From contig JAHGAU010000008.1 in the NCBI GenBank assembly GCA_019925105.1, positions 1 through 64,000 of the forward strand: DNA of 64,000 nucleotides. The letters run 5' to 3'. A program made the translations under genes and the position numbers. The notes beneath the pieces were generated by a model, which worked only from the letters and a program-made list of their open reading frames with translations, made no database searches and was not told where the DNA came from. Shown piece by piece: positions 3,846-22,026 of this stretch. Origin of the DNA: Niebla homalea. Lineage: Eukaryota; Ascomycota; Lecanoromycetes; Lecanorales; Ramalinaceae. The number at the start of each line of letters is the position of its first letter. Position 1 is the first letter of the stretch.

Positions 3846-3904
3846 GATCACCTTTGGTGGTAAAATCTTAATCCTTTCACTTCTCAACAACCACCCTATA
3901 AAAT

Positions 3905-4130
3905 TTTATCAACAGAGGCTTGTTTGAATGCGCTTACTTCACTCTACAACTCTTATATATAAAGTTAATGGATTAAGTAAATAACTTTAAAGATACACTG
4001 AAATATAGTATCCATACTTCACATAAAGTTCAGATCCAAGACTTAACAGATGACTCACTACATACAGCCTCTCCTATTAGTCAGCTATCCGTACTTCACA
4101 TGAAGTCCAGATATTAATAGTGTTAGCTTA
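3905..4130. repeat. Unmutated spacer with TATATAAAG box and paired direct repeats
   Basis: GC-moderate sequence. Near 3,940-3,965 it resembles the pre-hairpin part of the tail units at 13,090, 16,100, 18,270 and 21,850 (CTCTACAACTCTTATATATAAAGTTAA here against ATCTACACC..TATATATAAAGC there). Further on, a segment of about 27 bp (TATCCATACTTCACATAAAG.., from about 4,008) recurs from about 4,086 as TATCCGTACTTCACATGAAG... The core ACTTCA-CA-TGAAGT is a perfect 6-bp palindrome in the second copy. It has the position expected of a diverged tail end but lacks the 5-10-10-10-5 hairpin seen in the other copies. Confidence 0.5.
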
Positions 4131-4134
4131 TAAT

Positions 4135-4860
4135 TACTTTATAACTTTATTATAATACCCTTTATAATTCCCTTATAAACCCCTTTTTAACCCTTTTATT
4201 TATCCTTTATAACTCCTTTATAATCCTTTTATTAATATCTTTATTTATTTCTTATAACCTCCTTTAAATACCTTTTTAATCCCCTTATAATCCCCTTATA
4301 ACTCTCCTTATAAACCCTTTATAAAACCCCTTATAAACCCCTTATAATACCTTTTATAAACCCTTAATAATTCCTTTTAATAACCCCTTATAACTCCGCT
4401 TATAAACCCCTTATAAAACCCTTAATAAACCCTTTATAATACCCTTAATAAACCCCCTATAAACCGCTTATAACCCCCTTATAAACCCCTTATAACCTCC
4501 CTATAAACGCCTTATACCCCCCATAAACCCCTTATAACCCCCTATAAATACCTTATAACCCCCTATAAACCCCTTATAACTCCCCTTATAAACGCCCTAT
4601 AATACCCCTTATTAACCCCTTAAAACCCCCTATAAACCCCCTATAATACCCCTTATAAACCCTTAATAATTCCCCTTAATAACCCCTTATAACTCCCCTT
4701 ATAAATCCTTTATAATAACCCTTATAAACCCCTTATAATAACCTTTATAAACCCCTTAAACCCCCTATAATTCATTATAACCCCCTATAATTCATTATAA
4801 CCCCTTATAATACCCCTTATAATTACCTTATAATTCTTTATATAACCCTTATATCCTGCT
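4135..4860. repeat. Satellite-like array of CCCCTTATAA(A)
   Basis: Roughly 65 imperfect units of 9-12 bp of the type CCCCTTATAAA, CCCCTATAAAC and CCCTTAATAAA, all in one orientation. Units in the middle are cleanest and both ends are more AT-rich. The repeat ends near a short palindromic phrase TTAGGGTTTAACCCTAATAA at 4,868-4,887. No open frame crosses it. Confidence 0.85.
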
Positions 4861-5485
4861 TAAATATTAGGGTTTAACCCTAATAACCCGCTTTTAAATT
4901 ACTACTTTAATTTACGATTAAGGTAAAAATATATAATACGTATTATTACGAATAAAAAACCTAGAAAAATAATATAAAAAACATAAGTTATCTTAAATTT
5001 TTTATTTAAATTAATTTATTAAATTATTCACTTTATTTAAATTAATTTATTTATTTAATTCACTTCTTATTTTATTTATTTATTTATTTATTTTTTTTAT
5101 TCATTTATTTATTTCATTTATTTATTTATTTTATTTATTTATTTAATTTATTTATTTTTTTTATTTATTTAATTTATTTATTTAATTTATTTATTTAATT
5201 TATTTTTTTAATTTATCTACCTATTTACTTATTTATTTATCTGCTTATTAAGCCGTCTACCACCCTTGAAACCTACCGCTCGTTCATAGTTTATCTTTTA
5301 CCAGCCAAAACCCCCTTGCGGCAGCGGTTTTCTCTATGATTAGTAGTGCTTTACCCCCTTTTTTTATTTTAATATAAAAACCCTTTATAATTAACTTTTA
5401 CCCTGGATTATTTACCCTGTAAAAATAAATCAAGCTTAATACCCTTAATTCATTTGGGGTATTAACTACACGGTGAATTCAGTAA
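4861..5485. repeat. AT-rich spacer with TTTATTTA runs and a small GC island
   Basis: From 5,020 to 5,230 the sequence is a simple TTTA/TTTATTTA run. From 5,240 to 5,350 a short stretch with normal base content survives. It includes AAAACC and GGTTTT arms flanking CCCTTGCGGCAGC at 5,308-5,333 and could be the remnant of a transposon end. No gene is supported. Confidence 0.5.
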
Positions 5486-5690
5486 TACTTTATTACTTTA
5501 TTATTTTATTATTTTATTATTTTATTATTTTATTATTTTATTATTTTATTATTTTATTATTTTATTATTTTATTATTTTATTATTTTAGTATTTTATTAT
5601 TTTATTATTTTATTATTTTATTATTTTATTATTTTATTATTTTATTATTTTATTATTTTATTATTTTATTACTTTATTACTTTATTTATT
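5486..5690. repeat. Microsatellite (TTATTTTA)n
   Basis: About 24 nearly perfect copies of an 8-bp unit, TTATTTTA, with rare substitutions (one TTAGTATT). It is followed by irregular TTTATT-rich sequence to about 6,200. Confidence 0.9.
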
Positions 5691-6560
5691 TAATAATCAA
5701 TTTATTTTTTACTTTATTTTTTACTTTATTTATTACTTTTTTATTAATTTGTTTCTTAGTTTATTTCTTAATTCATTAATCTATTTATTTTTTTATTATT
5801 TTATTTATTAATCCATTTTTTAATTATTTTATTTATTAATCTATTTCTTAATTAATTTATTTCTTAATTGATTTATTTATTTATGTATTTCTTAATCAAT
5901 CTTCTCATTTATTTATTTAATCATTTATTTATTTTCTTATTTATTCATAAAGGGTATTTTCGTGATAAATTATTTATCCTTAGCCTTTTATAATAAGAGA
6001 TTTTATTTGATTATATATTTATTTACCTGTTTATTAATTAATTAATTATTTATTTATCTATTTATTTATCCGTTTTATAACTTACTTATTTTTTCCTTTA
6101 CTTATTCCTTTCTTTATTCATTTATTTATTTATTTGATATATTTAACCCATTATTTATTTATTGTTATTTCCTTTTTTTCCTTTTTTTTTTTATTTAGCT
6201 TTAAATTCCTTGTTTATTTATTTATTAATATTAACCCTTTTAATATAACTATTAATAAATAATAAAAGAACTTGTTTTTTCTTTTAATCTAAACTCGAAT
6301 ATTCTATTATAAAGGTTTTTTTTATTTTAAAAGGTATAAGGCAAATATTTAAAAGCTTTTCTTAAAAAGATATTTATAAATTATCTATCTATTTATTTCC
6401 AAATTAAACTAAGGTGAAATTATGTAATAATATCTCAATAAACCCGTTAATCTCCGCATTTCTATAACTCCTTTTTGACCGTTTATAAGTCAAAATATCC
6501 TTTAACTCCACTTTATCCTTAATAAATAGGTATTAAATATTTTCCCAGTATTATTTTATT
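5691..6560. other. AT-rich sequence, no gene seen
   Basis: TTTATT-rich low-complexity DNA to about 6,240, then more complex but RIP-mutated DNA. The part beyond 6,300 may be the far 3' end of the minus-strand helicase relic, but I could not read a convincing protein pattern there. Confidence 0.4.
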
Positions 6561-9500
6561 AATAATTGAAAAATCGGCTAATCCTTTATATAATAAAAAT
6601 AGGTAAAAAGGGTTTCGAAGACCAGGCTTTATCGATATAAATAGGATTTTTTTTTAGTAGGTCTATAACCTTTATCTATAGGTAAAGGCTTAAACCGGGT
6701 ATAAAAATCCTGAGGTAAAAGATATTTAAAATATCCCGAGTATTTATCTATATCCTAATAATAAAGTCTATTAATCCAAGTCCTTATAAAAAGATATATA
6801 TCGTAAATATTATGATTTTAATATTTATCGAAAAAGTATTATAATAATACCGGTATATCCGAATTCGTATATATTTTATAATTAATATAATTTTTAAATT
6901 AATATTATAAAGTCGATTCTAGGTTATTTAGATTTATTTCGTTTTTCCGGTTTTCCAGTAAATATTAATCTTTTAATCTTAAATTATAAGATTCTTATAA
7001 TTCGAAATCTATAAAATCAATATTTATAGGTCCGGTAAGGTCCGTAAATAAATCCTTTTCGATTTCGGTATTAAGTTTTTCCTTTTAAATAAACCCAGAG
7101 TAAAAATCACATTTTTCCTCGTTTTTCTTATATTTTTTCCGGTTTATAAAGCCGTCCATAACCGAGTCCAATATAATCCGTCGATATTTATCGTTTTCAA
7201 CGTAATCCTTTATATTTGGATCTTCGGGCCGAAATAACCGAAGGCTATAAAAGATTATAGCTTCACTTTTTTCCCCTTATCGGCCGGCTCGTCCACTTTC
7301 TTAACTATAAGCCTTTAAATCCCTTAATAAACCGACGTAAATAATAACCCGTATATCCGGTAAATCTAGTCCCATAGATAAAGCCGAAGTAGTCATTAAA
7401 ATAAAAGCTTTTTTATTGCGGAAATTATCGAGTATTTAGCGTTTTTAATTTATAGTCCCGATTTTTACGTGATATTTAAATATATCCAAGACTTTACTGA
7501 TTTGATCCGTAAGGTAAATTATCCCATAAAAGATAAGGATTTGGTTACTTAAATAAAGCCTTTTTTTCAAATTTATTAAAGGTGGTAAACCATCCCTTAA
7601 ATTATCCACTATAGCGTATTCTTAAATTGAATATTGAATATTTAACCTTATAATCAATTCCCGTAATAAAAGTATATTGGATATATCGATACCGGCTAGC
7701 TAAAACTAGGTATTTTCATTTTTTAGTAATAAGGAAGCCGTTAAATAAACGAATTACGTTTTATATTTAATTAAGGATTTTAATTCCTTAATTTTCGGCC
7801 GAAAATCCTTGGTAGTATCCAGTAAAATATAAGCTTTATTAATAATAATACGGTCCAAACGGCCTTATCGTTTTAATCGATTTAAAAATTAATTAAAAGG
7901 TTTGGTAATGGCTATTTCCGGGGTAATTAATATAATATTAGCCCAATCTTTAGGGCTTTTTAAGGTCTACTCCAGATATTTAAGGCCTTAATTTTAAGCC
8001 TTAAGTAATATTTCCTCCCTTAAAGATATAAGGGGTAATATTACCACGGTAAGTCTATTTAAGCCGGTAATAAGGGTAAAAACTATAAAAAAAATACTTT
8101 TTCCGCGTTTAGTATTAAATATAATAATGATTAAACTTTTTCCGGATAGAATTACCGTTAATCCGGTTTTTTATAAACCTTAAAACTCTAGATTTTAACC
8201 GTATAATTGTTAAAAAGCCGGTAAAATTCGAGTAAATCGAAATCTTTAGTATTTTTCTTTATAAATTTCCTTAGTGGAATTTATAAATAATTTAGATTTC
8301 CAGTTTAATTTTTCCGGTATAAGTAAAGTACTTAAGAATTAAAGGAATTAAAAGAACTAAATAAATAAAGCCATGAATTTTTCCCGTTAAGTATATATTT
8401 AGCCCGGTATTTCATCCAATAACCGGGAGTATATATTATTAGCAATATTATTAATATAAACGGCTTATAAATCGATAATTTCATTTTTTTTATCGTTATC
8501 GTTTAGATCAATAGCGTTTTCTTAGTCTTTATTAGTGAATTTACCGTAATAACGTTAAAAAATAGTAATAATAATATACCGCCAAGCCAGGGTTTTAATA
8601 TTTACTCTTACCCGGGACCGGAACTCCTTGGATAAAGTTATACTGAAAGAATTGGACGTCTAGGTATTATAACGGTAAAGGATATCTTGAAATTCCTATT
8701 AATTTAAATCCTTTTTTTGAATTTCGTCCGAGTTATTATTAATTACCGTTTAACGTCTTAATCGTTTTTATTGTTTTTTTGATTTTTCGGTTTTTTTAAG
8801 GTTTTTAATAGAGTAAATCCGTTTAGGTTAAAGGTAAGGGGTAATATTTAATTTTTCCAAATATAAATTCGATAAATTCGTTTTTAAAGGAATATAAAGC
8901 TAAAGGTAATAAATAAATAAAACCGATAATTCATAAGGTATAAACCGGTTTATAACCTTAGTCGATCCAATAGTAATAAAGCCTTTATAATATAAAGTAA
9001 TAAATATAAATAGGCCGTTTTAAATAAAGATATTTCGTTTAGAATTTAGTTAATTTTAATATTAAATTAATTGGATTTTAAAACTTCAAGCTGGATTACC
9101 CCAAATAAGTTATAATAAAACTATTAACTTCTCTTTGAATTTCCGGTTCTCTTTAAATAAATAATAAACTTTATCTAGTTTCCACTAAGTATCGTTGTTT
9201 TTAAATTTAAGAAAACGGGTTTATAAGGCTGGTGTTTAATGGATTTTTTTATAAAGCTAAAAATCACCTTTAAAAAATAATTTATTCCGTTCGTCCATAA
9301 AGAAATTTTAGTCCGGTATACTATTAATAATATCGTCAGAAAAAGTAATAAAATCTACGGAAGGTAAATCGTCTTAACCGGTAAATAATAAATTATTAAA
9401 TAACCGGGATTTAACGGTTTCCAGTAATCCAAATACCACGGAACGGTATTAATCCATAGTTAATAAGAGATTTTTATAAAAACCTCGTCATTTTCCTAGG

Positions 9501-11272
9501 ATATAATACCTTTTCGGTAATATTATAATTAAGGGTAAATCTATAAGTCCGTAATTTAGAAATGAAATTAATAGGCCGTAATGGGGTATCGGTATCAGTA
9601 AGGAATAAGTGATTTTTCATTAATTTAACAGTTTTGTTAAATAAGGTATTAATAAATAAATCGGAATCCGAAGTTAAAGGTGAATTTATTAATATATCTG
9701 AGTTAATAATTTAATCCTTAGGTTCCGGTAGACTGGGTCGAAGGGTATAAGCCCTTAAAAGGATAAGGGCTCGAGAAAAGGTAATAATACCACTTAATTT
9801 AATGGTATAATTCGTAGGTGGAGACCAGGTAAAATCGGTGCTGATACCGTGTATTATTAAGCTATTAAGTAAAGGGCTTTAATAATCATCCTCAGATAAA
9901 TCCTGGTATAAAAAGCTTAAAAAAGCGTAATAATAAATCCTTAAGTTTATTTAAAGAATATAATAAATCCTTAAAATTACTATCGGATAAATTATTAGCG
10001 AGTTTTTCGTTAAATTCATTAAAAAAAAAGGTTATTAATATATATATTTAAATAAAAGATAAAACTAATAAAAATAAAGGTAAAAAAAGGGTAAAGTAAA
10101 ATATAAAAAAGGTAAAAAAAAAAAAAAAAAAAAAGGGTAAAAATTATAAGTTAAAAAATAAATATAAATAATAAATAATAAATAATAAAGAAAAATAAAG
10201 ATAACTTACTTTTCTAACTGATTTTTTATAAATCTTAATACTTTAATAAATAAAGTAAGAGATAATTTAATATATTTATACCTTAAATGGTTCTTTAAAG
10301 TAAATAACCTGGTATTCTATAAATAAATGAATATACCAAGTTAAACCTCGGTATAAAAGTGGATCATATTTAAACCGATATATATTATAAATGGTTTTTT
10401 ATTTATAACGTTACCGGTTTCTTTACGGTTTATATATTTTAGTGAATTCCGGCCTACGGTACTTAGCTTATTAATTAAAACCGTTTTCTTAAATAAAGCC
10501 TTAATCAATTTTATTATTAAATATAATAATAAAATCGATAATTACTCTAGATCGTTCAATTTTAAAGTCGGTTTTACCGGTGGTTTTAACCAAGACCGGG
10601 CTATAACTGGATTAAAATTCAATAAATGGGTGGCCTACCCGGTACGGGCAACCCAGGCATTAACCTTGAATTTTTCCGGTTCCGTAATCGTTATATTCGA
10701 ATTTTTGGTAACCGTTTTAATCCGTTCCGTTAATTTCCTCATTCTAATAGTATGGATAAGGGCCGGAATATCCGTAAATGAATCGTTATTATCGTTATTA
10801 TTATCCGTATTAAATACTTTAAATAAATAACGATTGGATCCAACGTTAAATAACTATTAATATTTAACGGACGTCTATTGGGTATTTAACTTAGGTTAAG
10901 TTTTTCATTAAAAACCACCTTTTTTTCCGGGTTTATAAATATCCGGGTAATCGGTACGATAATGGGCCTTAATACCGTTTAATATTAAATAAATATAAAG
11001 GCAATTTATATATTTAAAACCGGATTGAACCGGTAATAAATATATAGCGGTAATCGGTTTTTTAAGGATTTAAATATCTCCGGAATAATTATTATTAATA
11101 TAATTAATTATTTTACCCCTTATTAAAGGGGCAAGTTAAGGGTACTGATATCGGAGGTGATTACGTATTTTATCGATCCTTATACCGTATTTATGATTAC
11201 GGCAAATTAATACCTTATAATCAAATAAATAAAAAAAAGGCCTTTTCGGTAAGGGCTTAAGGTAAGTCTATT
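6560..11272 (-). pseudogene. RIP-inactivated RecQ-type helicase, telomere-linked (TLH-like), copy 1
   Basis: Minus-strand translation gives a RecQ superfamily-2 helicase riddled with stops. The N-terminal end (11,100-11,265) reads FDYKVLICRNHKYG..NHLR, like the C2H2-like DUF3505 region of fungal TLH proteins. Near 8,380-8,520 lies NNIANNIYSRLLDEIPG, resembling the linker before the helicase core. A degraded Walker A (TKRGKSIFF) sits near 8,100, the DEAH-equivalent INEAYILLDTTKDFRPK near 7,800, and QFVYLTAS just after. The C-terminal RecA lobe at 7,240-7,440 reads FILMTTSALSMGLDLPDIRV followed by ESGRAGR. Known family: RecQ-like genes embedded in fungal subtelomere repeats. Changes such as D/E to N/K and R to stop fit RIP. 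The gene is dead in this copy. The 3' boundary is approximate. Confidence 0.85.
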
Positions 11273-11284
11273 GTATAAATGGAT

Positions 11285-11560
11285 ATAAATAAAAGGTAAA
11301 AAAAAGGAGTAAAGGTAAAGGGTAAGAGTAAAGGTATAAGGTAGTAATAAAGGTAATAGGTATAGTAAAGGTAAAAGGTAAAAGGTTCAAGGTAAAGGGT
11401 AAAGGGTAAAGGGTAAAGGGTAAAGGGTAAAGGGTAAAGGGTAAGATAAAGGGTAAAGGGTAAAGGGTAAGATAAAGGTAAAGGTAAAGGTAAGGTAAAG
11501 GTAGAAGTGATAGGTAATAAGTCGAGTAATAGGTAATAAGTAAAGGGTATTTGGTTTGCT
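11285..11560. repeat. Period-7 minisatellite GGGTAAA upstream of helicase copy 1
   Basis: Repeats of the heptamer TAAAGGG, cleanest at 11,390-11,470, sit immediately upstream of the minus-strand helicase start. The equivalent place upstream of the second helicase copy (20,040-20,310) has a different set of heptamers (GGTAAAA and GGGGAAA). The period is thus kept while the unit sequence is not. It is not the canonical TTAGGG telomere repeat. Confidence 0.85.
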
Positions 11561-13257
11561 TGGGTATTAAGTAGATTGAATGACTTAAGTATGATGAGAA
11601 AAACAGAAATTTAAGGGGGGGGAAGGGGTATTATATAGATAAATTATTGGCCAAGCCTTTACCAAGTTTATAACGATTATTTTGGAGTGAATATAGGTTC
11701 CAGGGCTTAAAAATAGCTAAGTTTATTAATAATCCAAAAATAACCGGGCTGTATAAAGGTTAATACTTAATAGCGGTAATAACGGTAATAGTAATATAAT
11801 AATTTAAAAATAAACCGGTTTAGGCCGGGCTTACCAACGTATTCATAATAATTTTATAATCGGTAAGTAGGAGTACCTTAAAGGGTATAAGCTAATGGGG
11901 TATATATTTATAAATAGCCCTTTATTATATAATTAAAAGGGGGGATTATATTAATAAAAATCATTATTTATTTTTTGGTTTTTTCCAACTTACTTATTTA
12001 ATATATGATTTTTAAAGCTTTTATTTTAATATTATATATATTAATAAACCTTTTATTACGGGATTAAACTATTAAAAGGTAATATGAATAATAAGGAAGT
12101 TATTAGTAATATAAAGTAAAGGTTTTATAAGTTAAAAACCTTTTTTAAATATATATTTAAATATAATAAATGGATTTTTTTGATTTTAACTTTATTTAAA
12201 AGCTTTTTTTTTTCTGTATAATTCGATTTTTTCCGGTAAGTAAAAGGGTAAATAAGCCTTAAGATATACCCCTTTAAAGGTTTTTAGGATTTTAGCGCCG
12301 GGAAGTAATTTTATACTTAACCGGTTTTAATAAAGGAATTTAATAACGGTAATAGTTCAATAATTAACCACTTAAATCATACGAAATAAACTGGGTTTAA
12401 AAGCTTATACTTAGATTTACGTTTTCCCCATAGAAGTTTTTATTATAGGGTATAAAGTAAGGAATAAGGTAATAAAATAAATAAAGTTTTAATAATTTTA
12501 TTTTAAAACTTAATAACTTTATTATAAATATATTTCTTAAAATACTTTTAAATTATAAAGGGTTTAATATAGGATAACGGCTAAGACTTTAATATCGTTA
12601 TCCTATATTAAAAAAAGTACTTTAATATAATAGTTATATAATTTAATTATTAAAAATTCCGAATATTCAATAAGGTATTTAATAATATAAGTATTAATAA
12701 TACCTGGATTATAATATATCCGGGCTAAATTAATACTATTTTAATAAAAATCTTTTTAGGTTTAATAAATATAATTAATAATTAAAAATAACCTAAATAT
12801 ACCTTATTAAACCTTAAAAATTAAACGGAAAAATATTTATTTTAATATTATTATAAGTATTAATGAACGGAATTTTATTTTTCCAATACCATTAAAAAGC
12901 TTTAATTTTAGGTTAAAAAGTTCAATTATTATATTTTAACGGGGAACGGCGGGGGAAAAAGTAAGTTTTAACGCCGGAAAGCGAACTTAAACTTAAACCT
13001 TTAGAATTCCTATACTTAGTAAAATCGATAATTAAATCGCCCCTTACCCGATCCGGGTTAAACGGGGCTCGTTTTATAGCCCGTGCTGAGCTTTATACTT
13101 TTGCTATATAAAGTTAAGGGATCCGGTCTGGAAAATACCTTAAACTATTTATTTTTAAAAATGAATAATTTGAGGGTGTAGCAGGGGTAAAGCGGAATTC
13201 CCCCCGGCGGAGGGAATGAATGGGTGGAGGCTGCAACCATTCAAAACTAGATGGTAG
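11561..13257. repeat. H-to-tail repeat unit, copy 1
   Basis: Begins with AAGTAGATTGAATGACTTAAG and GAAAAACAGAAATTTAAGGG, and passes through shared landmarks: TTGGCCAAGCCTTTACCAAG (11,647), ATAGCCCTTTATTATATAATT (11,915), GCCGGGAAGTAA (12,297), a near-palindrome GGATAACGG..CGTTATCC (12,571-12,604), TTATTTTTCC..ACCATTAAAAAG (12,880), AACGCCGGAAAGCGAACTTA (12,970) and CTATATAAAG (13,104). It ends with the hairpin module. Matching units are at 16,265-18,422 and 20,325-22,026, and the tail part recurs at 15,746-16,264. RIP-type differences are abundant. No protein can be read on either strand, so it may be non-coding or the far upstream region of the helicase unit. Confidence 0.8.
13137..13257. 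other. Terminal hairpin module, arm type CAACCATTCA
   Basis: Hairpin 1 spans 13,137-13,176 with fixed geometry: 5-nt outer stem (ACCTT / GAGGG), 10-nt arm AAACTATTTA, 10-nt loop, 10-nt arm TGAATAATTT. After 40 nt comes a second palindrome: TGAATGGGTG (13,217-13,226), 7-nt spacer GAGGCTG, CAACCATTCA (13,234-13,243), two bases, then ACTAGATGGTAG. The four arm sequences are one 10-mer and its complement, with differences mainly of the C/T or G/A kind expected from RIP. Confidence 0.8.
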
Positions 13258-15444
13258 TTTAATTAACTATTTACCCTTTTTTATTTCATCAATTCTTTAC
13301 CCTTTATTATTTAATTATTTATTTACCGTTTATTTTTATATTAATTATTTTCCCTTTATTTATTATTTTAACTATTTACCTTTTATTATTCTATCAATTA
13401 TTTACCCTTTGTTATTATAGTAATTACTTACCCTTTATTATTTACTTATATCTCTTATTATTTAATTAATTATTTACTACCTATTATTTAACTAACTATT
13501 TACCCTTTATTATTCATTTAAATCTTTACCTATTTATTTATTCTTTAATTATTAATATGTTTTTTCTTTAAATTAATTTTTTACCCCTTACTATTTAATT
13601 AACCCTTTACCCTTTATTATTTATTTAATTATTTTTTATTATTACCTTAACTATTTACTTTCTACTTTATTATTTAACTATTTATTTAGCTTTTATTATT
13701 CGATTGATTTCTTACCTTTTATTATTTAATTAATTTTTTACCCTTTGTTATTTAACTGATTATTTACCCTTTATTATTTAATTAATTATTTATACTTTAT
13801 TATTTAATTCATTATTTAACTTTTATTATTTAAGTAATTACTTACTTTTTATTATTTAATTTTATCTCTTTCTTTATTTAATTAATTATTTACTTTTTAT
13901 TATTTAAATAATTACCCTTTATTATTTTAAGTTATTCTTTACCTTATATTATTTACCTTTTATTATTTAACGTTTATTATTTGTTTAATTATTTACCTTT
14001 ATTAATTAATTATTTCTTTACCCTTTATTATTTAATTAATCATTTACCGTTTATTATTTAGTTTATTATTTACCCTTTATAATTTAATTAATTATTTACC
14101 CTTTTTTATTCAATTAATTGTTTACCCTTTTTTATTATATTAAGTATTTATACTTTATTATTTACCCTTTATTATTCATTCAATTATTTACCCCTTATTA
14201 TTTATTTATTTACGCTTTTTTTTTTTTTTTATTTAACTATTTTCCATTTATTATTCAATTATTTACTTACCCTTTATTATTTAATTAACTTTTTTTCCCT
14301 TTATTATTTAATTATTTATTTACCCTTTATTTTCATTTAATTATCTACCCCTTATTATTTAATTAAGTATTTACCCTTTATTATTTAATCAGTTATTCTC
14401 CTTTTATTATTATATTAATTATTTATACTTTATTATTTAATTAAACTTCTACTTTTTATTATTTAAGCAAGTATTTACCCTTTATTATTTAATTTTATCC
14501 CTTATAACTTAATTAAGTATTTATTACTTATTATTTAATTAATTATTTATACTTTATTTTTTATTCAATTTTTTACCTTTTATTATTTAATTAATTATTT
14601 ATACTTTATTGTTTAATTAACTATTTACCCTTTATTATTTAATCAATTATTTACTTTTTCTTATTTAATGATTATTTACCCTTTTTTATTTAGTTAACTA
14701 TTTATCTTTTATTATTTATTTTAACTATTTACCCTTTCTTATTTAATTAACTATTTCTTTTTTCTTATTTAATAATTATCTACTCTTCTTTATTTAATTA
14801 AATATTTATCTTTTATTATTTATTTTAATTATTTGCCATTTCTTATTTAATAATTATTTACCCTTCCTTATTTAGTTAATTATTTATCTTTTATTATTTA
14901 ATTAACTTATTAACCTTTCTTATCCAATAATTATTTAATTATTCTTATTTAATTAACTAGTTACCCTTTATTATTTAATTAATTCCTTACCCTTTATTAT
15001 TTAATTAATTCTTTCCCCCTTTTTATTTAATTAATTAGTTACCCTTTATTATTTATTTAATTATTTTTTATTATTTAAATAATTCTTTATCTTTTATTAT
15101 TTACCTTTTATTATTTAACCTTTCTTAACCCGTTATATTTTTTATTATTTAATTAACTGTTTATTTTTAATATTTACCTTTTATTATTTAACCTTTGTTA
15201 TTTATTTAAATTTTATGTTATCTATTCAACTATTTACGTCTATTATTTAATTATTTATTTACCATTTATTACCTGATTAATTGTTTACCCTTTATTCTTT
15301 ATTTATTTACCCTTTATTATTTAATTAACTATTTACCCTTTAATATTTAATTAACTATTTACCTTTTATTATTCAATTATTTGTTTACCCTTTATTATAA
15401 TATTAAGTATTTAATCTTTATTATTTACCTTTTATTATTTATCC
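13258..15444. repeat. AT-rich low-complexity tract, copy 2
   Basis: Same phrase structure as bases 1-2,464 (TTTACCCTTTATTATT alternating with TTTAATTAATTA). It starts directly behind the terminal hairpin module of copy 1 and leads into P module copy 2. No coding potential is seen; the small frame at 13,220-13,420 is only the start of the low-complexity run. Confidence 0.8.
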
Positions 15445-16264
15445 TTTATTAACCATATTAAAATAAGCCCTTAATATATAAATAACTAATAATTTTATTA
15501 ATATAAAAGGGTTTTTACCGGTTAAAGGTTATAAATAATAAGAGTTAAATTAAATAGAGGCTTTATTAAAAGTCTTAGCATAAGGACGCGACGCTAACGG
15601 CTATCCTATGCCAAGACATTTAAGAAATTAATTAAATAATAAAATTAATAAGGAAAAAGACGTAATTATTATTTATTATTATTAAGTAAATAATATATTT
15701 ATTAATATAATCCGGATTATAATAATTCCGGTATTATTATAAAGCTTTTTTTTCCGGCTATTTTTTAAATGTATTAATTATTATAAAAGATTAAAAATAA
15801 GCCGGATGCACCTTAAAACCTTAAGGAATTATTAAATAAACCCTATTGGTCAATACTATCGTAGCCGTTAATGGACGGATTTTTATTTTTCCGATACCAT
15901 TAAAAAGCGAAAAATTGTATGAAAAAAGTTAAATTACCACTTTTTCCCGAGGAACAGCCGATCGAAAAGTAATAATTAGCGCCGGAAAGCAAACTTAAAC
16001 CTTTACCCTCCGAATTCCCAAAGTTGATAAAATCGATAATTAAATAATTACTCCTCGGACGAACCTCGGAGGTATCGGGATTGATAGGCCGTGCTGAGAT
16101 CTACACCTTTTATATATAAAGCTAATAAATCCGGGCCGGTTCTACCCTCGAAAGAGTCATCCGCAGAAATGACTCTTTGGAGGGTCAAGTCCGAGAAGGC
16201 CGAGTTAGGGCCGGGAGGGCAAATGACTCTTTGGAGGGTGGAAAGAGTCAGAACTAGGTGATAG
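15445..16264. repeat. P module plus tail, copy 2
   Basis: P module at 15,445-15,745 (TTTTTACCGGTTAAAGG, GACGCTAACGGCTATCC), then the tail landmarks GGACGGATTTTTATTTTTCC (15,881), AACTTAAACC and TATATATAAAG (16,110), then the hairpin module. It lacks the H part. This copy is less mutated than the others in its last 250 bp (CpG and CpA are retained), so its hairpin is the clearest. Confidence 0.8.
16145..16264. other. Terminal hairpin module, arm type GAAAGAGTCA
   Basis: Hairpin 1 at 16,145-16,184: CCCTC, arm GAAAGAGTCA, loop TCCGCAGAAA, arm TGACTCTTTG, GAGGG. This is 14 of 15 possible pairs, with one G-G mismatch at the arm base. After 39 nt: TGACTCTTTG (16,224-16,233), spacer GAGGGTG, GAAAGAGTCA (16,241-16,250), GA, ACTAGGTGATAG. 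The next repeat unit (H of copy 3) begins immediately after. Confidence 0.9.
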
Positions 16265-18422
16265 GTTAATTAAGTAGTAAGTAGATTCAGTAATATAAGT
16301 ATAATAAGAAAAACAGAAATTTAAGGGGGGGGAAGGGGTATTATATAGATAAATTATTGGCCAAGCCTTTACCAAGCCTATAACGATTATTTTAAAGTAA
16401 ATACAAATTCCAGGGCTTAAAAATAACTAAGTTTATTAATAATCCAAAAATAATCGGGCTATATAAAGGTTAATACTTAATAACGGTAATAACGGTAATA
16501 ACAATATAATAATTTAAAAATAAACCGGTTTAAGCCGGGCTTACCGACGTATTCATAATAATTTTATAATTAGTAAGCAAGAGTACCTTAAAGGGTATAA
16601 GTTAATAGGGTATAAGTCTATAAATAACCCTTTATTATATAATTAAAAGAGGGGTAATAAAAATATTAAAATAAGGTTTATTTTTTAGATTTTTCTTAAA
16701 ATACTTAATAATTACTTTATAATTCTAGATTTTTCTTTTATTATATTAAATAAAAAAGGCCTTTTTATAAAGTAAATTAACCTTAATAAAAATAATTAAA
16801 TATTAAGTAAATTATTAATAAAATAAGAATAAGATTTTAATATTTAAATAACGTTTTTAAAAATATCTTTAAATATAATAAATGAATTTTTTTAATTTTA
16901 ACGTTATTTAATAGCGATTTTTATTCTTAATATTTTGGGTTTTTTTAATAAATAAAAGGGTAAATAATTAATAAGATATACCCCCTTAAATAGTTTTTGA
17001 ATTTTAACGCCGGGAAATAACCCTATACTTAACCGGTTTAAGTTATAAAATTTAATAATATAAATAACTTAATATTTAATTATCCGATTTATATGAAATA
17101 AATAATATTTAAAAGCTTATATTCAAATATACCTTTTTCTTATAGAATATTTTATTATATGATTATATAAGGTAATATAATAAGGAAAACTTTAAAATTT
17201 CTATTATAAAATTTAATAATTTTATTTTAAAATAAATTTATAATATTACCGTAAAAATTAAGGGCCTAATATAAGATAACGATTAACGTTTTAACGTTAT
17301 TATTTTATATTAAGATTACCTTAATATATTACTTAATAACCTAAATATTAAAATATTTATTAATTACTTTTAATTTAATCCATTAATACCTTTTTAATAT
17401 TAAATTGATTATTTACTTTTTTTTATTTATTTAATTCTTTACCACTTATTATTTTATTAATTCTTTCCTTTTTTTTTATTTAATTAATACTTTACCCCTT
17501 ATTATTTAATTAACCTTTACCCTTTTTAATTTAATTAATTAACTTTTATTATTTAATTAATTCTTTACTTTTCTTTATTTAATTATTATAAATCCTTTAT
17601 AATTAATATTATTATTTATATTAATTTAAACCCTTACTATATTAATAACCGTTAATCTTATTAATATAAAAGGGTTCTTACCGGTTAAAGGTTATAAATA
17701 ATAAAAGTTAAAGTAAATAAAGAAATTATTAAAACTCTTAATATATAATAACGACGTTAACGGTTATTTTATATTAAGATATTTAAGAAATTATTTAAAT
17801 TAAAAAATTATTAAAAAAAAAAAAGTAATTATTATTAAAGGAAAAAACGTAATTATTATTATTAAGTAAACAATATAACTATTAATATATTTAACTTTAT
17901 AATAATTCCGATATTAATATAACCGCTTTTTTTTATATTATTTTTCAGAATTAAAAAAAAAATAAAAAAAATTAATAATACTCCGGGTATATTTAAGAAA
18001 ACCGTAAAATTGGAATTATAAGATTTATAGCTTAATATTATAATAAGTAATAACGGACGGATTTTTATTTTTCCGACATTATTAAAGAGCTAAAATTCAT
18101 ATAAAAAAAATTAAATTAAAGGATTTTTCCGGGGAATAACCAAATAAAAGTTAAGAATTAACGCCGGGAAATAAACTTAAACTTAAACCTCCAGAATTTT
18201 AAAACGTAATAAAATCAATAAGTAAATTGCCCGTTAACCGATTCGGGTTAAATAAGGTTCATTTTAAAGCCCGTATTAAGATCTATACCTTTTATATAGA
18301 ACGTTAAGGATTCTATAGAAAAAAACCCCTTTAATAAGTTACTTTAAAAAATAACTTATTAAAGGGTTTAACGGCGGATCGCAGAATTCCCCTTAAATAA
18401 GGAAATAACTTATTAAAGGGTC
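16265..18422. repeat. H-AT-P-tail repeat unit, copy 3 (fullest arrangement)
   Basis: H part 16,265-17,400 (same landmarks as copy 1), a short AT-rich tract 17,400-17,590, P module 17,591-17,935, tail 17,936-18,422. It is the only copy showing H, AT tract, P and tail in order, so it may represent the ancestral layout. Copies 1 and 4 lack the AT tract and most of P, and copy 2 lacks H. Heavily RIP-mutated; no proteins are readable. Confidence 0.75.
18327..18422. other. Terminal hairpin module, arm type TAATAAGTTA, last arm lost
   Basis: Hairpin 1 at 18,327-18,366: CCCTT, TAATAAGTTA, loop CTTTAAAAAA, TAACTTATTA, AAGGG, perfectly paired over 15 bp. After 39 nt the arm TAACTTATTA recurs (18,406-18,415), followed by the 7-nt spacer AAGGGTC. 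The expected second copy of the forward arm and ACTAGGTGATAG are missing: the unit is cut there and helicase copy 2 sequence follows about 25 bp later. Confidence 0.85.
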
Positions 18423-18444
18423 GAGTAAATAATAATTAAATAAT

Positions 18445-20030
18445 AGATAATTTAATCCTTAAGTTCCAGTAAATTAAGTCGAAGGGTATAAGCCCTTAAA
18501 AGGATAAGGACTTAAAAAAGGTAATAATACCACTTAATTTAATAATATAATTCATAGGTAAGGACCAGGTAAAATCGGTGTTAATACCGTATATTATTAA
18601 GCTATTAAGTAAAAGGCTTTAATAATCGTCCTTAGATAAATCCTAATATAAAAGGCTTAAAAAAAAACGTAATAATAAATCTTTAAGTTCATTTAAAGAA
18701 TATAATAAATCCTTAAAATTATTATCGGATAAATTATTAATAAGTTCTTCGTTAAATTTATTAAAAAAAAAGGTTATTAATATATATATTTAAATAAAAA
18801 ATAAAAGTAATAAAAATAAAAATAAAAAAAAGGGTAAAATAAAATATAAAAAAGGTAAAAAAAAAAAAAAAAAAAAGGGTAAAAATTATAAGTTAAAAAA
18901 TAAATATAAATAATAAATAATAAATAATAAAGAAAAAATAAAGATAACTTATTTTTTTAATTAACTTTTTATAAATTTTAATACTTTAATAAATAAAGTA
19001 AAAAATAATTTAATATATTTATACTTTAAACGATTCCTTAAAGTAAATAACCTAATATTCTATAAATAAATAAATATATTAAGTTAAACCTTAATATAAA
19101 AGTGGATCGTATTTAAATTAAAATATATTATAAATGGTTTTTTATTTATAACGTTACTGGTTTCTTTATAATTTATATATTCTAATAAATTCCGGTTTAC
19201 GGTATTCGGCTTATTAATTAAAACGGCTTTTTTAAATAAAACCTTAATTAATTTTATTATTAAATATAATAATAAAATTAATAATTATTCTGGATTGTTC
19301 GATTTTAAAGTTAATTTTACCGGTAATTTTAACCAAAACCGGATTATAATTAAATTAAAATTCAATAAATAAATAGCTTAACCGGTATAAATAATTTAGG
19401 TATTAACCTTGAATTTTTCCGGTTTTATAATTATTATATTTATATTTTCGGTAACCGTTTTAATCCGTTCCGTTAATTTCCTTATTTTAATCGTATAAAT
19501 AAAAGCCGGAATATTTATAAGCGGATTATTATTATTATTATTATTATCCGTATTAAATACTTTAAATAAATAACGATTTAAGCCAGCGTTAAATAACTAT
19601 TAATATTTAATTAATATTTATTAAAAGTTTAAATTTAAACGGTTTTTTCATTAAAAATTACCCGTTTTTTATAATTTATATATATTTAGATAATTAATAC
19701 GATAATATAAAGTAATACCGTTTAATAATAAATAAATATAAAAGTAATTATTATATTTAAAACCGGAAAGAACCGGTAATAAAGGTAAAGGTAAAATTAA
19801 CTTATCTGGAATATTAATATTATCAAAGTAATTCTCCATAATATAAGTATAAATTTTACCTTTTATTAAAGGGGTAAGTTAAAGGTATTATTTATTAAAA
19901 TAACCACGTAATTCTTAAAATTATATACCGTATTTATAATTATAATAAATTAAAGCTCGATAATCAGATAAATAATAAAAGGCCTTCTTAATAAAAGCTT
20001 AAGGCGAGTTTATTATATAAATAAATAAAT
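18445..20030 (-). pseudogene. Partial RecQ/TLH-like helicase relic, copy 2 (N-terminal part only)
   Basis: Collinear with 9,695-11,272 of copy 1. The shared phrase GTCGAAGGGTATAAGCCC is near 18,478 and 9,729, and the N-terminal DUF3505-like end lies at 19,850-20,020. The helicase core (Walker A, DEAH, GRAGR) is absent because the repeat ends near 18,445. Heavily RIP-mutated and not functional. It is flanked on its 5' side by a period-7 minisatellite and an H-to-tail unit, the same order as copy 1, so the duplicated segment includes all three parts. Confidence 0.8.
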
Positions 20031-20034
20031 AAAA

Positions 20035-20312
20035 ATAAAAAGTATAAAAATAAAATTAATAATAAATAAAAGTAAAGGGTCATAAGCGATAAAGGTAAAG
20101 GGTAATAAATAATAAAGGTAAAAGTCGGTAAAGGTAAAGGTCAATAAAGTAAAGGTAGGTAAAGGTAAAGGTGGTAAAGGGTAAATGGTAAAAGGTAAAA
20201 GGTAAAAGGTAAAAGGTAAAAGGTAAAAGGTAAAAGGGGAAAGGGGAAAGGGGAAAGGGGAAAGGGGAAAGGGGAAAGGGGAAAGGGTATTGGTAAAGGT
20301 AAAGGTAGTAAG
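20035..20312. repeat. Period-7 minisatellite, GGTAAAA then GGGGAAA
   Basis: Near 20,180-20,235 the unit is GGTAAAA (about 7 copies), switching at about 20,236 to GGGGAAA (about 7 copies), with irregular GTAAAGG flanks. Placement upstream of helicase copy 2 mirrors 11,285-11,560. A 142-aa minus-strand frame through it has no independent support. Confidence 0.85.
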
Positions 20313-20324
20313 TAATAAGTGGAG

Positions 20325-22026
20325 TGTAATTGGGTTAATTAAGTAGTAAGTAGATTCAGTAATATAAGTGTAATAAGAAAAACAGAAATTTAAGGGGGAA
20401 GGGGTATTATATAGACAAATTATTGGCCAAGCCTTTGCCAAGCCTATAACGATTATTTTAAAGTAAATACGAGATTTAAGGCTTAAATATAATTAAGCTT
20501 ACTAATAATTTAAAAATAACCGGGCTATATAAAGCCTAATATTTAATGGTAGTAGTAACGGTAATAACAATATAATAATTTAAAAATAAACCGGTCTAAA
20601 CTAGGCTTACCGACGTATTCATAATAATTTTATAATTATTAAGCAGGAATACCTTAAAGGGTATAAGTAAATAAGGTATATATCTATAAATAGCCCTTTA
20701 TTATATAATTAAAAAAGGTTAATAATAATAATAAAAATTAATATTTATTTTTCAGTCTTTCCTTAATTACTTACTTTATATTCAATATTTTTAAGCTTTT
20801 ATTTTATTATTATATATATTAATAATGCTTATATTACGGGTTTAAAGTATTAAAAGAAATAATCAATAATAAGAAAGTTATTAATAATATAAAATTATAA
20901 TTTTTTTATTTAAATAGCCTTTTTAAATATAAATTTAGATATAATAGATGGATTTTTTTGATTTTAACGTTATTTAATAGCTTTTTTTTTCTATATAATT
21001 CAATTTTTTTCGGTAAGTAAAAGGGTGGATAAGCCTGAATATATACCCCTTTAAATGTTTTTTTTGGATTTTAACGCCGGGAAGTAACTTTATACTTAAC
21101 CGGTTTAAATTCTGGAATTTAATAATATGAATAATTAAATATTTAATTATCCGATTCGTATAAAATAAATAATATTTAAAAGCCTATACTTAGATCTATT
21201 TTTTCCCTATAGAAGTTTTTATTATAAAATATAAAATAATAAAATAAATTAAGCCTTAAGATTTTTATTATAAGATTTTTATTATAAAATTTAATAATTT
21301 TATTATTCTAAAAGTAACTTTAAACCCTTAATTATTAAAGGCTTAATATAGGATAATAGTTAAGGCTTTAACGTTATTATCTTATATTAATCCTTTTATT
21401 ATATATTACTTTATTATTAAAATTCCTAAATATTAAAATAAAAGCGTTAATAATATAACTATAAATAATCCTCGGAATATAATATCTTCAGTATTAATTA
21501 ATTCCGTTTTTTTTAAGGAATTTTTTAAATACTATAAATAAATTTAAGGATTAAAAATAACCCGGATATACCTTATTTAATAATGAAAATTAAGTAACCT
21601 TAAATTTACCTTAATATTATTATAGGCTATAATAAACGGATTTTCGTTCTTCCGGTACCGTTATAAAGCGGGAAAGTATATAAAGAAAGTTAAATTATTA
21701 TATTTTAATAAGGAACGGTGGATTAAAAAGTAAATTTTAACGCCGGGAAGCGAACTTAAACTTAAACTTTTAGAATTCCGATAGTTAATAAAATCGATAA
21801 TTAAATCGCCCGTTAATTAATTTAAGTTAAATAAGGCTCGTTTTAAAGCCCGTATTAAAATCTATAACTTTTATACTTAAAGTTTCTTCATCCCTTATAC
21901 TTTACCCCTCCTTCGGATCACTTGAAGAAATAATCCGAAGGAGGGTCGAATCGGAAATCGCGGAATTGCCCGCTTGCAGGGCAAATGATCCGAAGGAGGC
22001 TCCTTCGGATCACCACTAGGTGATAG
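20325..22026. repeat. H-to-tail repeat unit, copy 4
   Basis: Starts GGGTTAATTAAGTAGTAAGT and GAAAAACAGAAATTTAAGGG, then the same landmarks as copy 1: TTGGCCAAGCCTTTGCCAAG at 20,424, GCCGGGAAG at 21,075, a near-palindrome GGATAATAG..ATTATC at 21,351, and AACGCCGGGAAGCGAACTT at 21,739. It lacks the AT tract and most of the P module. It ends with the hairpin module and is directly abutted by a LINE. Confidence 0.8.
21906..22026. other. Terminal hairpin module, arm type CTTCGGATCA
   Basis: Hairpin 1 at 21,906-21,945: CCCTC, CTTCGGATCA, loop CTTGAAGAAA, TAATCCGAAG, GAGGG (one RIP-type mismatch). After 40 nt: TGATCCGAAG (21,986-21,995), spacer GAGGCTC, CTTCGGATCA (22,003-22,012), CC, ACTAGGTGATAG. 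The loop ends in AGAAA as in copy 2. Confidence 0.9.

Follow-up and report, generated by a model that had tools for sequence, protein, structure and literature searches.

Inner ends of telomere-linked helicase elements in Niebla homalea, a candidate one-ended recombinase element

Contig C8 of Niebla homalea (JAHGAU010000008.1, from an assembly of 50.6 Mb in 52 contigs) carries four double-hairpin structures in its first 64 kb (positions 1 to 64,000 of the forward strand, referred to below as the window). They are probably the inner ends of elements of the telomere-linked helicase (TLH) kind, which follow one another head to tail at the chromosome end. The explanation that we favour for them, with reasonable though not strong confidence, is a one-ended, telomere-capped recombinase element in which the repeated arms of the hairpins are the predicted binding sites of its own recombinase. 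We observed a fixed end, a prevailing orientation, variable outer ends, a four-way concordance of the arms and G|G junctions, to which are added invariant residues of catalytic type and a recombinase-like fold in the predicted structure of the protein.

The fixed inner end and the gene behind it

The exact 12-mer that closes these structures, ACTAGGTGATAG, occurs at 59 places in the genome, against 7 for the reversed control. Around the 57 places outside the window, the sequence beyond the 12-mer is unrelated while that before it falls into family groups, and because of this we regard the boundary as a true element end, common in its geometry to about ten element families. An earlier note, made from the window alone, had listed a recombination or transposition end among its readings, and a fixed boundary with unrelated DNA beyond it supports this. 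The search pattern demanded a terminal G; a 10-mer search gave 24 further places (control total 49), and among the three near contig ends that were read, one was a chance match and two were element ends closing with GATAA, without that G. One of the latter represents a new GC-rich family H (L063, C42:11950-12200), is apparently little mutated and may be a recent copy.

Fifty-five of the 59 ends are no more than 30 kb from a contig end, where about 3.6 would be expected, at 33 distinct contig ends, and 52 of the 55 point inward. On the telomere side the picture is variable. The copy on C22, of about 9.0-9.1 kb, starts directly after telomere repeats, the one at the right end of C8 is shortened to 1177 nt with telomere repeats at the cut, and on C32, C50 and C20 the telomere is attached to still other sequence, so that telomere attachment is direct at all five outer ends seen. 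Family A homology ends at many differing distances toward the telomere, and no fixed outer end was seen among the copies compared. At four composite ends (L029, L043, L036 and L051) a newer element is joined within the last few tens of bases of an older one, of which a stub remains.

The C22 copy, translated with X at stops, encodes a protein with OrsD/DUF3505, DEAD and Helicase_C domains, as a TLH element should. When the genome was searched with a helicase homologue, blind to the 12-mer, 40 matches came out (38 of 97 candidates scored). Of these, 38 are at most 30 kb from a contig end and every one of the 38 reads toward that end, which is the position and orientation of TLH genes; the remaining two lie about 7-8 kb from a telomere tract inside C11. 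Between the OrsD zinc fingers and the RecQ helicase, TLH homologues have an apparent tyrosine-recombinase domain. The residues R, K, R, H and Y are invariant in 50 of 50 aligned homologues, in the order Arg I, Lys, Arg II, His/Trp, Tyr, and an E at Arg I +3 and an H-Y spacing of 9 fit the tyrosine recombinase family. The predicted structure has a core-binding plus catalytic domain fold, and the structural matches 1-19 given by VIA-align for this model are all recombinases or integrases. The domain is apparently unreported in TLH proteins: the literature searched, with most subscription papers outside it, gave no statement of a tyrosine recombinase or of such an end in TLHs, and no paper in which 'tyrosine recombinase' and 'telomere-linked helicase' occur together.

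Arms and junctions

The terminal geometry described earlier was confirmed, with an outer stem, an arm, a 10-nt loop, an arm and a stem, then after 39-40 nt the arm complement, 7 nt, the arm, 2 nt and the 12-mer. Within the window, the copies with ends at 13257, 16264 and 22026 show it, and their end coordinates also stand; the third copy has it in heavily mutated form and ends at 18446, not at 18422 as had been proposed. The first hairpin of copy 1 (13142-13171) has diverged strongly from its second. Written in one sense, the four repeats R1-R4 each run from TGA through a core of 6-7 nt to GGAGG or a variant of it.

The arms had been thought to be specific to each copy, and proved to be specific to families, with 17 distinct R3 strings in 59 units (four composite units were excluded from this table, and the mismatch count below drops two more). 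The string TGACTCTTTC is found in 25 units, TGACTCTTTG in 7, and 15 further strings account for the other 27, several strings being apart by C/T or G/A only. The situation that the earlier note held to be damaging, most copies with one arm in common, is thus nearly reached to the letter (25/59 for one R3, 32/59 for either of two near-equal strings); between families, all four repeats change together. With hand-chosen family representatives, and R1 of family H shifted one base by hand, the core identity within a unit was 0.90 in ten families against 0.487 when permuted (0/100000). By pair it was 0.90 for R1-R2, 0.917 for R3-R4 and 0.883 for R2-R3 (0/100000 each), and 0.917 for R1-R4 (1/100000). 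In six less related families the identity was 0.944 (0/20000), with 0.917 for R2-R3 (23/20000). Covariation across 12 representatives was 0.564 versus 0.170 shuffled and 0.08-0.16 slid, figures of a kind that kinship can inflate, and two-sided changes were seen at 16 of 25 pairs. The contrast that had been drawn between conserved flanks and variable arms holds for the TGA/TCA arm ends (identity 0.78-1.0, with 1.0 for the TGA of R3 in nine representatives) and for the 12-mer (0.94) as compared to the cores (0.33-0.47), but not for the linker, at only 0.54.

A structured RNA with pairing arms, another of the readings proposed at the outset, is weakened by these repeats, given that G-U departures are as frequent as A-C ones and that R2 equals R3 though no hairpin pairs them. 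Among the 12 representatives there are 10 G-U departures, 10 A-C and 27 other mismatches, and among 57 copies 36, 34 and 73 cells, respectively, a count that speaks mainly of decay after insertion. The R2-R3 match, together with the missing excess of G-U, favours recognition in double-stranded DNA over RNA pairing, and the arms would then be sites read in DNA. No Rfam family reached its gathering threshold in the window. The idea that the arm is copied from a target or donor is not supported either, as the C22 element has four occurrences of the 11-nt A-family arm (with at most one mismatch) and none of them lies away from the inner end. Exact R4 10-mers are absent from the 55 own 1-kb flanks counted; with an expectation of about 0.7 there, this is weak evidence alone. 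In the flanks of other units there are 38 in 3.19 Mb.

Across families A/B, C, D, E and F the helix of OrsD finger 2 varies; A and B, the families that have most of a core in common, are alike in it. Families A, B and C are alike in finger 1, which therefore cannot explain their different cores. That finger 2 reads the arm core is suggestive only, the finger helices being judged by eye from mutated copies. Some 30-45 nt outside R1, the aligned families also have an inverted motif of the type CTTT-N6/7-AAAG, which is TATA-like in families A, B and E and in two of three F copies; its TATA-like part is missing from the least-mutated C and D copies. A reading as a TATA box was rejected, since the motif keeps this character in some families only.

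Because many flanks lie inside other copies of the family, the outer target base lost at the junction can be read from relatives. In 41 targets reconstructed in this way the -1 base was G in 27 (background 0.133), A in 9, T in 4 and C in 1, with AG in 19. After 11 of the 41 flanks were dropped as satellite or duplicate junctions, and with a base scored as G (or C) if seen in a quarter or more of its references, the remaining 30 had G in 25 and A in 5 at -1, and G in 23, T in 6 and C in 1 at +1, while all other positions from -12 to +15 were at or below 0.29 bit. The five A's could be mutated G's. The junction of the element end is thus at G|G, with the final G of the 12-mer common to element and target. 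In the window, base 16265, directly after unit 2, falls inside unit 3 at such a reconstructed G|G target. The geometry of R3, 7 nt and R4 resembles the core site of a recombinase.

The proposed element, its weaknesses and its rivals

The element that we propose would have a single fixed end (...ACTAGGTGATA-G) toward the chromosome interior and would extend outward until the next element or the telomere repeats. Its gene, read from the fixed end to the telomere, would encode OrsD with two C2H2-like fingers, the tyrosine recombinase and the RecQ helicase, and R1-R4 would be two inverted pairs of a predicted binding site for this protein, TGA-N6/7-GGAGG-like. The joint change of the cores in all four repeats would follow from each family maintaining sites matched to its own recombinase, in the manner of arm-type sites and a phage integrase. 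This enzyme, its activity being predicted from sequence and modelled fold, would join the element end to a G|G dinucleotide on another chromosome arm; as the element extends as far as the telomere, a single crossover could move the whole terminal block and cap the new end, and the old distal part would be lost or exchanged. We infer that the protein binds the arms, through either the OrsD fingers or the recombinase proper, and carries out the strand exchange, with the exact crossover, the single-crossover transfer and the role of the helicase inferred alongside.

Extended to other fungi, the proposal becomes more tentative, and we consider it plausible while falling a little short of probable that fungal TLHs are recombinases of one-ended mobile elements, with OrsD zinc fingers, tyrosine recombinase and RecQ helicase, and with the telomere as second end. 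Under it, four family-specific arm sites and a G|G target would serve one site-specific crossover, by which the element moves and a chromosome end is capped or swapped at once, and arm sequence and zinc-finger helix would co-diversify into a family-specific recognition code. If true, TLHs, a widespread feature of fungal subtelomeres whose genes have been known for decades without a clear role, would become a mobile element with enzyme, site and target, the single orientation of helicase genes at many fungal chromosome ends would be accounted for, and a mechanism would be at hand by which chromosome ends, variable in many fungi, could be exchanged. The roughly ten families in this one genome would allow arm and protein to be matched.

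Several points weigh against a recombinase element. The junction lies 14 nt beyond R4 and not at the usual crossover position, the spacer between inverted arms; seven of the 59 ends are misplaced or misoriented (two each on C11, C13 and C21, one on C33); and neither a reciprocal product nor a second end was found, each chromosome end being read in part. Family H (C42) retains R3 and R4 and has lost much of R2, and the element TLH copies that were read are broken. As to the domain itself, the 50 homologues were hand-picked, partly for carrying the recombinase region, and the His of HxxR is not conserved (column M 17, S 11, Q 6, L 5, A 4, I 3; n=50); this His is common but not universal in tyrosine recombinases, and so not defining. 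The case for the fold is made by the rows of VIA-align together with the motif; by the warning of that tool, Z scores of this size can also arise between unrelated helical models. No profile or sequence match to a recombinase was found in Pfam, PHROGs or PDB sequences, and Foldseek alone gave nothing at E 0.001 (best E 0.48). The 50 rows shown by Foldseek for the whole P0022 model were all of the RecQ family and are uninformative on the recombinase part.

A quite different process, in which an RNA with the 3' end ...GATAG is reverse-transcribed onto the 3' end of a broken chromosome and the hairpins are what the reverse transcriptase recognises, would give the same polarity, fixed 3' end and truncation on the opposite side, as from target-primed synthesis, and the target base before most junctions is indeed the last base of the end. 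All nine 120-nt ends folded also fold better than the shuffled mean (z -2.1 to -6.0), with both hairpins predicted in A, B, C and L020, and R1 paired to R3 in D and E. We nevertheless regard RNA-templated addition as unlikely, for the element gene reads the opposite way, G-U is not in excess over A-C, and the preferred +1 G lies outside the template. Moreover, a telomeric retroelement would be expected to carry a reverse transcriptase, yet no RVT_1 match overlaps the C22 element, and the scanned pieces of that element match only OrsD, DEAD and Helicase_C in Pfam. The genome has 87 RVT_1 matches, at least 8 of them within 30 kb of a contig end, but only one, at C28:843521, is placed between two element ends (judged by eye, from position).

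The arms could also be operator or promoter sites through which the TLH gene regulates itself, the boundary then coming from another process, and their place upstream of the gene beside the CTTT/AAAG motif, TATA-like in some families, is in line with this. However, R4, at a fixed 14 nt from the boundary, agrees with R3 at six or more of 10 positions in 59/59 units, and the arms are therefore locked to the element end; the gene start is some 1.26 kb away (L039), and the least-mutated C and D copies lack the TATA-like part, all of which makes autoregulation a fairly unlikely account of the arms. Matching of the four repeats, direct and inverted alike, would be accounted for by template switching at quasi-palindromes or by gene conversion, with no recognition involved and with the ends spread via homologous recombination or break-induced replication. 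This leaves unexplained why a variable core should be flanked by conserved TGA and GGAGG-like parts, as well as the G|G target and a fixed end on unrelated flanks, and both the matching and the spreading of ends by such routes seem to us quite improbable. A rolling-circle 'peel-off' model was set aside, rather than disproved, in favour of a recombinase on account of the motif of the latter. In a scan for viral contigs, four stretches fitted a pattern and none was a relative, and a first protein search, with a 240-aa piece, returned 106 candidates, none at E 0.001.

Map of the window and relation to known systems

The DNA is AT-rich over the first 36 kb of the window, except for a GC-richer minisatellite near 3-4 kb. 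Going inward, the end of a related second element family, G, is followed by the four units of Table 1, and among copies there are C/T and G/A differences resembling repeat-induced point mutation (RIP). Unit 1 is 87% identical to the C22 element over 7.7 kb (4127-11749 = E614-8198), with a further piece to E8799. Its helicase was found by a protein search of the genome itself (E 3.9e-112, many stops) and its OrsD part by tblastn.

Table 1. Features of the four stacked units and of the adjoining family G end in the window
Feature	Positions	Strand	Remark
Family G inner end	3850..4126	+	related second element family; adjoins outer part of unit 1
Unit 1	4127..13257	+	nearly full-length TLH element, family F'; start ~4127 in map to C22 element
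Unit 1, broken TLH gene	7100..11252	-	reads telomere-ward, away from arms
Unit 1, RecQ helicase part	7100-9487	-	
Unit 1, OrsD zinc-finger part	10809-11252	-	
Unit 1, arms	R1 13142-13151, R2 13162-13171, R3 13217-13226, R4 13234-13243	+	sequence, arm table
Unit 1, terminal 12-mer	13246..13257	+	ACTAGATGGTAG
Unit 2	13258..16264	+	family B, truncated on telomere side; 26-nt T-rich satellite, then body
Unit 2, T-rich satellite	13258-15446		26-nt repeat, outer part of unit 2
Unit 2, arms	R1 16150-16159, R2 16170-16179, R3 16224-16233, R4 16241-16250	+	arm table
Unit 2, terminal 12-mer	16253..16264	+	ACTAGGTGATAG
Unit 3	16265..18446	+	truncated element, family E'
Unit 3, arms	R1 18332-18341, R2 18352-18361, R3 18406-18415, R4 18423-18432	+	
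Unit 3, terminal 12-mer	18435-18446	+	mutated, ATTAAATAATAG
Unit 4	18447..22026	+	truncated element, family C
Unit 4, OrsD remnant	19552-20013	-	OrsD tblastn
Unit 4, arms	R1 21911-21920, R2 21931-21940, R3 21986-21995, R4 22003-22012	+	
Unit 4, terminal 12-mer	22015-22026	+	

Family G is of a design like that of the main families, with a different spacing. Its fixed end, ...ATTAATAGTGTTAG (closing with TGTTAG), has two ACTTCACATGAAGT-type palindrome copies nearby; besides the window it was seen at L010, L016, L025, L035, L037 and L043, and the nine ends read among the fetched loci and the window have differing flanks. A satellite similar to that of unit 2 flanks several other ends. As for the seven exceptional ends, the one at C11:970583 has an internal telomere tract 12 kb off, where telomere repeats in opposite orientations lie about 1 kb apart (C11:957497-958546), and these repeats may mark fused chromosome ends or a misassembly. 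The C13 pair (L030 and L031, at 1392850 and 1401948) shows the same end together with its flank twice, in opposite orientations and 9 kb apart, which suggests a palindromic duplication, fused or inverted ends, or again an assembly error. The ends at C21:1111 and C21:2335 lie within 2.4 kb of the contig start and point in the wrong direction; the remaining exceptions are C11:1055111 and the one on C33.

Among known mobile elements, Helitrons have an HUH Rep-helicase and ends of the form TC...CTRR, unlike the ends of the present element, whose gene strand starts CTATCACC and whose other strand ends ATAG; no HUH family was among the Pfam matches of the pieces scanned, which cover part of the element. 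HeT-A sits at chromosome ends with one fixed inward end and moves through reverse transcription. MoTeR and endonuclease-less Penelope elements are likewise described as lying at chromosome ends, fixed end inward, by way of reverse transcription (PMC8381367, PMC4522978). In contrast to all three, the C22 element showed no reverse transcriptase. In phage lambda, the N-terminal domain of the integrase binds short arm-type sites near the crossover, apart from the core, and the several short copies of one site near the junction described here recall these sites, as a resemblance only.

The nearest recombinase elements are Starships and Cryptons. Starships are described with a DUF3435 captain, two ends and direct repeats of 2-12 bp (PMC12153272), and the present element is like them in having a tyrosine recombinase gene at one end and a short target identity (here G|G), and unlike them in that no second end was found among the outer ends read. 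Nor did any of seven TLH domain fragments scanned match the captain family in Pfam (PF11917), as a Starship would. The genome has 34 PF11917 matches, mostly far from contig ends and at least two near (C32:760833, C47:13035), and none of the 34 overlaps any of the 59 listed element ends. Cryptons, too, are fungal DNA elements with a tyrosine recombinase and a short target identity, but they are described as bounded on both sides by direct repeats of 4-6 bp and as lacking terminal inverted repeats (PMC3212892), whereas here no second end was seen; the main text of that paper has no mention of a helicase.

TLHs at fungal chromosome ends are themselves well known (PMC5576322, PMC4522978, PMC12857005, PMC8381367). 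In Colletotrichum higginsianum, families of 11-18 kb with a helicase and DUF3505 are said to be at all 24 subtelomeres (PMC5576322), and the elements of N. homalea are like these regions in their RecQ-like helicase, OrsD/DUF3505, position at chromosome ends and single orientation. With the TLHcr of Fusarium oxysporum (PMC12857005) they have in common the RecQ-like helicase, the chromosome-end position and truncated copies. Where they differ from the TLH regions, as far as these two accounts describe them (PMC5576322, PMC12857005), is in the fixed inner terminus, the arms, the junction target and the apparent recombinase domain.

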